Positions 10,484 through 12,196 of a stretch of DNA of 25,929 bases are shown here, one piece after another. The notes beneath the pieces are model-generated. The model had not been told where the DNA came from. It searched no databases and was given only the letters and a program-made list of their open reading frames with translations. This DNA is from a virus. Every line of letters begins with the position of its first letter. Within the stretch, counting starts at the first letter, position 1. The stretch covers positions 1-25,929 of the IMG/VR virus record IMGVR_UViG_3300021357_000011; one strand, written 5' to 3'. A program made the position numbers and the translations under genes.

Positions 10484-11338
10484 TTAGGCTACATTAACAT
10501 CGTACACAATCGAAACGACTGTATTTGGTGTTAAGTGTCCAATATCTACTCGAGAGTAGTAACTTCGCCCAGAAAGATAAGTGTTGGTATCTCCAGCAGG
10601 AAAATCAATAGTGTGAGCCTTACCATAAGTGCCTCGAAGAATACCTAGTCTTTGCTGTTTCTTTACGCCAGCGAAGACATGGTTGGCAGCGTGTTCGTTT
10701 GAGAACCAATGATCAACTCCTAGATAACGCACACCCTCTACTGTACCCGCCTTGAGTGCCATATCAGCAGTAGTGAAGCCGTTAGCTTGCATATATGCTT
10801 CTAATAGTTCAAAGTCGGCTACTCTCCAGATAAAGCCAACGCCATTTGCATTCATCTGCGCCTGTCCATTTGCTTCTCTGATCTCCCTCTTAACTCCTCG
10901 GATAATATCATCAATATTGGTCGAGGAAACTGTAATATTTCCTGCGGCACCACCGATTGAAGCATTATCAAAGTCTGTCCAAGAGGCGTGCTGTGCCAGC
11001 ACGTTTGTCTCAATAAACTCATTCAAGAGCGCACCTATTCTATCGAATAGTTCTGCAGGTTTTGTCCAAGGCGACTGCGCTAAGTCTGCCCAATCTACGA
11101 AGAGACCCAAGTCTCGACCGGTTGAAATGGTCAAGGTGTCGGCTGTCTCTGCGAATGTCTGCATCGAGTGGCCTGTGCCACGTGTTACTGTCTGAACGGA
11201 TGGTGTTGTAGACCAGTAGGAACTCGAAATAACTCGGGTGTCAGTGATGAGCACATCGCACATCTCTTTCCAAGTCGTTGGGTGATCCAAACGGTCTTGC
11301 AACACATCCTCAAACAGTGTTTCGTAAGTTATGGTATT
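10484..11338 (-). CDS. Major capsid protein, exon 2
   Basis: This frame encodes a 284-residue main part of an HK97-type capsid protein (NTITYETLFEDVLQDRLD... PTTWKEMCDVL). It lies directly after a scaffold-like gene and before the adaptor. The coding pattern clearly extends upstream of the first possible start (GTG at 11305) through ITYETLFED, yet no ATG, GTG or TTG precedes it before a stop at 11399. I therefore read it as the second exon of a split gene, joined to exon 1 at 12137-12148. The spliced product would be 288 residues beginning MSVA-NTITYETLFED. An alternative is translation from the GTG, which would lose conserved-looking N-terminal residues. Capsid identity is inferred from size, position and abundance of beta/alpha pattern. 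Confidence 0.8.
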   Translation of the reverse strand, partial: NTITYETLFEDVLQDRLDHPTTWKEMCDVLITDTRVISSSYWSTTPSVQTVTRGTGHSMQTFAETADTLTISTGRDLGLFVDWADLAQSPWTKPAELFDRIGALLNEFIETNVLAQHASWTDFDNASIGGAAGNITVSSTNIDDIIRGVKREIREANGQAQMNANGVGFIWRVADFELLEAYMQANGFTTADMALKAGTVEGVRYLGVDHWFSNEHAANHVFAGVKKQQRLGILRGTYGKAHTIDFPAGDTNTYLSGRSYYSRVDIGHLTPNTVVSIVYDVNVA

Positions 11339-12136
11339 CCTTCTTGTTACTCCGCTTTCGCGGGAGGAGACCTCTTCGGATCTCCTTCTGCAATTTCTTT
11401 ATGATTATCTTTGCAGAGCAGACTATCGCATAACTTCATTTTACTGAAGTTTCTTCTCGCTTAGTCGTTTAGCGTGAAAGTTCCTACCCCAATTAAAAGT
11501 ACCTCTGTGGCATTTGATACAAAGAGTGCGACCATTTTGGAGATTCCAAAGTGCATCACAGCCTTGTGCCCTTTCAATAGTGTCAATTTTATTTTCAGTA
11601 ATTATATCTATAAACATTTTTGGGAAGTGATCGGCTTGAATGTCTCCGCCTCTTTTTCCACATAATATGCAAATATAATTATCTCTCTCAAAGATACTAT
11701 CTCGCCATTTTCTGTACTCATATAATTCACGAATTGATCCATACAAGGGACGTTTCTTTTCGTCCTTCCAACAGGGGTGATCCTTGCCTGTTTTGCCTTT
11801 ATTTAAATTTGCGACATGCTTCAATACATTTTCGGATACGCGTCTATTTTTTAGACCCTCTATTATCCGTTGGCGACCTTCAGCAGAAAGTGTGTAATAC
11901 TTCCGGCTTTTGCCTTGCCAATATTTTAGCGGATGAGCCTTCATGTATTCAATCCTTTTTAGTCGCAATTCTTCAGGCATTTTTTGACCTTTCCTCATAA
12001 GATATGTATATGAAAATCGGTCTCGTATGTCAACCTATGAATTACTTGGGGGTTTCAATGAACTATCTTCGCCCATGTTGCCCATCTCTGGGTTTCCATG
12101 TCAATCAGAGAAGATTTATAGTAGCCCATGTTATTA
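11339..12136 (-). ncRNA. Group I intron in the capsid gene (798 nt)
   Basis: Pairings visible on the minus strand: P1, exon end AGUAGCU with intron GGCUACU (12120-12126), giving a U-G wobble at the 5' splice site; P3, UCUUCUC (12108-12114) with GAGAAGA (11452-11458); P7, GACUA (11462-11466, in an ACGACUA R-like element) with UAGUC (11421-11425, S-like GAUAGUCU); P8, AACUUCA/UGAAGUU (11445-11451/11432-11438); a 6-nt J8/7 (AUGCGA); a P9 hairpin CUGCAA/UUGCAG (11388-11416); and a further hairpin with a GAAA tetraloop (about 11350-11366). The intron ends in G (11339) and removal keeps the frame. The order P1-P3-P7-P3'-P8-P7'-P9 is that of group I ribozymes. P4-P6 and P10 were not resolved by eye. 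Confidence 0.8.
11441..11980 (-). CDS. HNH homing endonuclease inside the group I intron
   Basis: A 179-residue protein. I prefer the ATG at 11980 over 11998 because AGGAAAGGT lies about 6 nt upstream of it. The N-terminal ~70 residues contain NUMOD3-like basic helices (LSAEGRQRIIEGLKNR, NKGKTGKDHPCWK), typical DNA-binding parts of intron endonucleases. The HNH nuclease occupies ~90-165: RDNYICILCG, the ADHF catalytic His, then NLQNGRTLCIKCH, with CxxC pairs binding zinc. The last codons overlap the intron's P7/P3/P8 core (KRLSE is coded by the R-like element). It would cut an intronless capsid gene and promote intron homing. Confidence 0.85.
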   Translation of the reverse strand: MPEELRLKRIEYMKAHPLKYWQGKSRKYYTLSAEGRQRIIEGLKNRRVSENVLKHVANLNKGKTGKDHPCWKDEKKRPLYGSIRELYEYRKWRDSIFERDNYICILCGKRGGDIQADHFPKMFIDIITENKIDTIERAQGCDALWNLQNGRTLCIKCHRGTFNWGRNFHAKRLSEKKLQ

Positions 12137-12148
12137 AGCTACTGACAT
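12137..12148 (-). CDS. Major capsid protein, exon 1 (MSVA)
   Basis: ATGTCAGTAGCT, read on the minus strand, codes for MSVA and is followed at once by TAA, so unspliced it would make a 4-residue peptide. Its last seven bases pair with the intron guide GGCUACU. Splicing to AAT at 11338 restores one frame. It lies 48 bp after the scaffold gene, the place where the capsid gene would be expected to begin. No strong ribosome site precedes it, only an A-rich leader. Confidence 0.7.
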
Positions 12149-12196
12149 TTTTTGTGGATATTAAACTAATAATGCCCCACAAAATTGTTTTTACTT

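Follow-up and report, generated by a model that had tools for sequence, protein, structure and literature searches.

Group I introns in capsid genes and endonuclease reading frames that overlap a ribozyme core have both been published. The mycobacteriophage LittleE (Cluster J) has a capsid-gene intron whose splicing was demonstrated by RT-PCR and N-terminal sequencing (PMC3706429), and a capsid-gene intron of the lactococcal phage Tuc2009 is cited in that paper. Core overlap is described for the T4 td intron, where the 3' end of the I-TevI ORF, an insertion in L6, contributes strands to P6a and P7, and for the LSU rDNA intron of Synechococcus lividus, in which the overlap runs through P6/P7/P3/P8/P9 (Table 1 of PMC3073962). 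The same source describes a Synechocystis tRNA-fMet intron with its ORF in P1, and presents the extension of ORFs into the ribozyme core as 'core creep'. In collaborative homing, a free-standing endonuclease is found beside an ORF-less intron, as in the cyanophage psbA gene (PMC3984707). No report of group I introns in phages of Patescibacteria was found in the open-access literature.

The window analysed here is a stretch of 25,929 nt from an uncultivated virus record (IMGVR_UViG_3300021357_000011) with a phage-type gene order on its minus strand: terminase, probable portal, scaffold-like protein (12796-12197), an intron element, capsid and an SU10-type adaptor. We consider, with a probability of about 0.95, that a mobile group I intron splits the major capsid gene after codon 4, splices out, and homes by means of an HNH gene in L6 that has extended into the ribozyme core (features in Table 1). 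As in LittleE (intron of ~820 bp), the major capsid gene is interrupted, exon 1 ends in U, the intron ends in G and an endonuclease gene lies inside. In LittleE, however, that gene is on the opposite strand and was compared with a LAGLIDADG enzyme, the intron class was left open, no core overlap was worked out, and the insertion is farther from the start of the gene, close to the site of capsid maturation. The td intron resembles the window in its L6 ORF and differs in its GIY-YIG enzyme, its host gene and the length of the overlap (20 nt versus ~30 nt through P6, P7, P3 and P8 in the window). The S. lividus overlap covers similar elements, but the enzyme is of the LAGLIDADG type, the host is an rRNA gene and the ORF is listed as a P8 insertion.

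Table 1. Features of the split capsid gene (window positions; all on the minus strand).
Feature	Position	Strand	Basis
Possible hairpin GUGG...CCAC just upstream of capsid start	12154..12182	-	read by eye
Exon 1 of capsid gene, ATG TCA GTA GCT (MSVA)	12137..12148	-	first four codons identical or similar in intronless relatives
Group I intron, 798 nt	11339..12136	-	covariation, hold-out HMM, CM halves, intronless relatives
Internal guide GGCUAC (P1 3' strand)	12121..12126	-	P1 pairing table
P3 5' strand UCUUCUC	12108..12114	-	partner strand 11458-11452; compensated variation in 3 of 7 pairs
P4 (12100-12097/12077-12074) and P5 (12092-12090/12083-12081)	12074..12100	-	compensatory changes
P6 5' strand GGCG	12070..12073	-	pairs with CGCU 11474-11471
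HNH homing endonuclease gene in L6, 179 aa from ATG 11980	11441..11980	-	PHROG 589, E 8e-12
P6 3' strand, within HNH coding region	11471..11474	-	covariation
P7 5' strand, bulged C at 11467, within HNH coding region	11462..11468	-	comparison with L007
P3 3' strand, within HNH coding region	11452..11458	-	covariation
P8 (11451-11445/11438-11432), 5' strand HNH coding	11432..11451	-	covariation
J8/7, 6 nt, AUGCGA	11431-11426	-	
P7 3' strand, after J8/7	11420..11425	-	covariation
P9 (11417-11411/11393-11387) and P9.1 (11385-11379/11372-11366)	11366..11417	-	covariation
P9.2 with GAAA loop	11363-11352	-	read by eye
Exon 2, major capsid protein gene, HK97 fold	10484..11338	-	AlphaFold and Foldseek

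The frame 11338-10484 shows weak similarity to a head protein family (PHROG 267, E 0.0016). No relative of the protein or of this DNA region was found in 50,697 phage records, and a PDB sequence search with the capsid profile returned nothing relevant. An AlphaFold model built from 43 diverse relatives reached a pLDDT of 83.9 (18 close sequences gave 36), and a search of this model against the PDB (Foldseek) matched phage Che8 (chain 8e16_A, 1.1e-11); alignment with HK97 (1ohg_A) gave Z 16.6 and rmsd 4.6 over 245 residues. The predicted structure thus confirms the exon 2 product, read as a capsid protein from the letters alone, as a capsid protein of the HK97 fold, and with its position between the scaffold-like and adaptor genes the frame was taken to encode the major capsid protein. 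Two relatives of the capsid occur in MAGs of small genome size, one of them Parcubacteria group bacterium GW2011_GWB1_40_14, and the binning of these two contigs makes Patescibacteria the likely host; a search of 380 genomes of that phylum found the capsid in one, the seed genome itself, and in no others. Elsewhere the window encodes a small SET-domain protein between the terminase and portal genes (17129-16713; PF00856, E 6e-7), a DUF7666 protein in which a 27-nt repeat present six times gives AQATGDRAG repeats (21479-21317), and a single protein that fuses an SNF2-type helicase with an N6/N4 DNA methylase (24924-22699).

The ribozyme elements are all present in the expected order. The sequence-only reading had named P3, P7, P8 and a 6-nt J8/7, to which P4, P5 and P6 can be added; the GAAA hairpin that it called P9 exists but is P9.2, and a separate P9 and P9.1 precede it. 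The pairing of the guide with the exon end also held: P1 is GUAGCU/GGCUAC with U.G at the splice site, and exon end and guide pair likewise in all 15 capsid-gene introns checked. Compensated changes in the P4/P5 region include CAUG/CAUG in the window and GCUG/CAGC in the nearest relative (L007; related loci carry the prefix L). Across the class, all three counted pairs of P6 and all four of P8 change on both sides. In eight capsid introns, covariation extends to P9 and P9.1, with 97.1% of cells paired.

A short core-region pattern retrieved more than 120 stretches from IMG/VR, most of which, among those read, share the same core. In an alignment of 28 cores, 98.5% of the cells of P3/P4/P5/P6/P7/P8 are standard pairs and 20 of 29 pairs have changed on both sides; none of 500 shuffles reached this covariation, and slid controls were 40-52% paired. 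A hidden Markov model built without the window and without L007 recovered both halves of the core, correctly ordered and on the correct strand (E 1.7e-9 at 12118-12064 and 1.4e-6 at 11480-11416), with 32.2 and 22.8 bits against a best of 10.9 among 100 shuffled windows. This hold-out model is the only fully independent one for the window and L007, since both rows were in alignment A2, in which the ORF had been cut out by hand. The class model R1 matches the window as two halves with the HNH gene between them, and scores 84 to 115 bits on uninterrupted-core capsid-gene introns outside its training set (L011, L156, L158, L161, L162, L261, L265 and L267).

The search with group I models proposed earlier had a divided outcome: R1 and the hold-out HMM each found the two halves, but Rfam gave no group I match in the window at its gathering threshold or up to E 10, an outcome that had been named beforehand as refuting. 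We attribute this to a limit of the Rfam model, because RF00028 also misses L011 and L023, two members of the class whose core holds no ORF, while scoring 64 bits on a group I intron of a different class in the L019 capsid gene. The class core was found in just 5 of the 50,697 named phage records, although the class itself is large (L030-L149). Sequence comparison supports the window intron as a member of a widespread phage group I class that the Rfam model tends to miss, and other split phage genes are therefore probably misannotated. P1 pairing, a covarying core, the intron-terminal G and an exon join to an uninterrupted homologous protein uphold the original assignment to group I.

The HNH gene, also recognised beforehand, matches PHROG 589 and keeps its active-site residues. 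Its ORF (540 nt; stop at 11443-11441) has a second in-frame ATG at 11998. Among the predicted active-site and zinc residues, D117 and H118 are invariant, and an N149/H158 motif and CxxC pairs are present; 17 positions are invariant across 16 relatives. Between the window and L007, dN is 0.28 and dS 2.1 (near saturation), which points to purifying selection. A PDB sequence search with the protein returned nothing relevant, and its matches among the 50,697 phage records are distant. A promoter upstream of the gene is absent from the consensus-scan list and is not claimed; a TTTGAAAA leader ahead of HNH cassettes was dropped as a common feature, being present at some loci only.

Because of the position of its stop codon, the ORF runs through P6 3', P7 5', P3 3' and P8 5', which are the codons for HAKRLSEKKLQ; the overlap noted earlier for P7, P3 and P8 thus extends to P6 3'. 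The P7 5' codons are AAA CGA CTA in the window and AAG AGA CTG in L007. All three changes are silent for the HNH protein; two of them fall in pairs, and there the opposite P7 strand, which lies beyond the gene, carries the matching change. Overlap of this sort is common in the class: of its ORF-bearing L6 introns, 15 of the 23 examined reach into P7. The C-terminus of several class L6 ORFs (among L030-L149) is L(S/N)EK.., a translation of the P7/P3 core.

An intron that has degenerated and lost splicing, leaving the capsid gene broken, would accord with the 540-nt ORF that interrupts the core and codes through it, and splicing is here deduced by comparison. Yet every core pair is intact, and in P7 the changes relative to L007 leave the HNH protein unaltered and are compensated. 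Exon 2 is an open frame of full length and the head genes of the contig are intact, so we regard such decay as very unlikely.

The exon join was examined in homologues that lack the intron. Exon 1 reads ATGTCAGTAGCT, its last six nucleotides (12142-12137) being the P1 5' strand; the intron begins with UAAUAA, a stop codon directly after the splice site, and exon 2 begins with the codon AAT, so that the join reads MSVANTITYETLFEDVLQDRLDHP. Intronless IMG/VR relatives have a start codon, 0-4 more codons and then NTITYET.FEDVLQ or a variant. Two of them (L017 and L241) read ATGTCAGTAGCA followed directly by AATACAATTACC, where the window has ATGTCAGTAGCT, the intron and AATACCATAACT. The predicted joining of MSVA to NTITYETLFED on removal of 798 nt is thus matched by relatives that begin MSVAN-TITYETxFEDVLQ or close variants, and the alignment recommended with that prediction places the capsid starts at the predicted site. 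Insertion at codon 4 is early, as had been remarked, but not unique, since some relatives are split after codon 2. The capsid family has at least six insertion points (marked by a slash): codon 2/3 or 4/5 (A/N), within the isoleucine codon of NTI (L265), T/Y, within DRL/D, LEA/F, and VQA/N.

Marginally less probable than a decayed intron is a capsid gene that starts at the internal GTG (11305), preceded by a free-standing HNH gene and no intron. This GTG opens a 273-aa frame, and L029 and L163 do have HNH genes upstream without a detectable core. However, none of the intronless relatives examined begins at the GTG; they keep ~12-16 residues upstream of it, starting M..N-T-I, and a complete covarying core in the intervening stretch argues further against such a start. 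That the element is an intein, or another insertion removed at another level, is scarcely credible: an element with an HNH domain does interrupt one gene, but it contains a group I core, and protein splicing is excluded by the in-frame stop UAA (12136-12134) that follows exon 1 directly.

For the spliced, mobile intron, comparison among relatives supports the exon join, the fold, the HNH family and the dual constraint on the overlapping strands, and we infer splicing, homing and a cleavage site as follows. The guide GGCUAC would pair with the exon end GUAGCU, a guanosine bound in P7 would attack after the U of the U.G pair, and exon 1 would then attack after the terminal G at 11339. The joined mRNA would encode MSVANTITYETLFED..., and MSVANTITYETL is predicted at the capsid N-terminus, unlike the product of an internal GTG start. 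The HNH protein would nick or cut intronless capsid alleles near MSVA/N, and repair of the cut allele would copy the intron in. The 3' end of the HNH gene presumably grew into the core, where P6 3', P7 5', P3 3' and P8 5' would serve as both code and ribozyme.

Taken alone, the window is one more capsid-gene group I intron, and the main interest lies in the series of arrangements around it. A search of the HNH family located its closest relatives around capsid gene starts, where five arrangements occur. The HNH gene lies directly upstream of the capsid gene in L029 and L163, with no intron and no core match even with filters off. At L158-L160, L162 and L261 it lies upstream of an exon 1 that reads ATGGCT and is separated from AAYAC by an ORF-less intron. 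At L156, L157 and L161 it occupies the P1 loop, after the 5' splice site and ahead of the guide; these genes belong to a second capsid family, in which intronless members start with MS or MA followed by NTIGTS. The window and L007 carry it inside L6. In L019-L021, L168 and L267 it is near the 3' splice site of an intron of a different group I class, inserted at ACCU/AC about five codons further on. The class assignment of these last introns is based on RF00028 matches in L019 and, below threshold, L267; their first P1 pair varies with full compensation (AACCU/GGGUU, CACCU/GGGUG, UACCU/GGGUA). L265 has an ORF-less intron alone, at a further site, and L011, L023, L027 and L267 have introns whose L9 holds a different HNH gene or a related endonuclease gene. 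L158, L162 and L261 resemble the psbA case in that an HNH gene adjoins an ORF-less intron in the same gene; the enzyme target was measured for psbA, whereas these loci are known from gene order.

Non-intronic HNH relatives stop a few residues past the last conserved motif, CHxKTxTWG, and L158, L162, L163 and L261 have such short ends without a tail. The L6 copies add NFHAKRLSEK.. (L6 tail NFHAKRLSEKKLQ), and in L156 the P1-loop copy has an additional QKVIKNLL, a translation of the guide and the P3 5' strand. As these extra C-terminal tails equal the translation of the adjoining ribozyme strands, core creep is seen twice in one HNH lineage; judged from the sequences, the tails arose independently and enter separate parts of the core. 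The same lineage in the same gene, with several arrangements and two tails, provides a natural series for two open ideas on the assembly of these parasites: that free-standing endonucleases already adapted to the site enter introns later (collaborative homing), and that ORFs reach the core through later extension (core creep). Both become directly testable with matched constructs.

In five relatives (L156, L158, L161, L162 and L261) exon 1 is just AUGGCU, which places the start codon within P1, where it would be paired until splicing; by hiding it, P1 would make capsid translation wait for splicing. We tentatively propose, at slightly less than even odds, that one HNH lineage targeting the first codons of capsid genes has been caught at several stages of joining a ribozyme, that the copies inside the ribozyme independently grew core-coded tails, and that P1 hides the AUGGCU start. 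The HNH protein tree has weak inner support, and the order of the five arrangements does not emerge from it.

The region upstream of the capsid start may itself be structured. Across 43 intronless loci among L214-L301, the ~45 nt upstream of the start have a mean fold z of -2.6 (37 below -1). In most, the hairpin ends a few nucleotides before the start; stem sequences differ and there is no obvious Shine-Dalgarno, nor was one seen by the hairpin in the window. This hairpin is a candidate translational control element. The codon aligned with the capsid ATG of relatives is ATT in L019-L021 (near 3160) and L236 (2486), ATC in L240 (2486) and L294 (833), and ATA in L163 (3013), with no nearby in-frame ATG, GTG or TTG at these starts. 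The HNH gene of L029 (2217-2650) has an apparent 1-nt frameshift near its end and is in the same frame as the following capsid gene, which is without a normal start codon. L267 (530-3370) has two group I introns of different classes in one capsid gene, one of them with two HNH genes.
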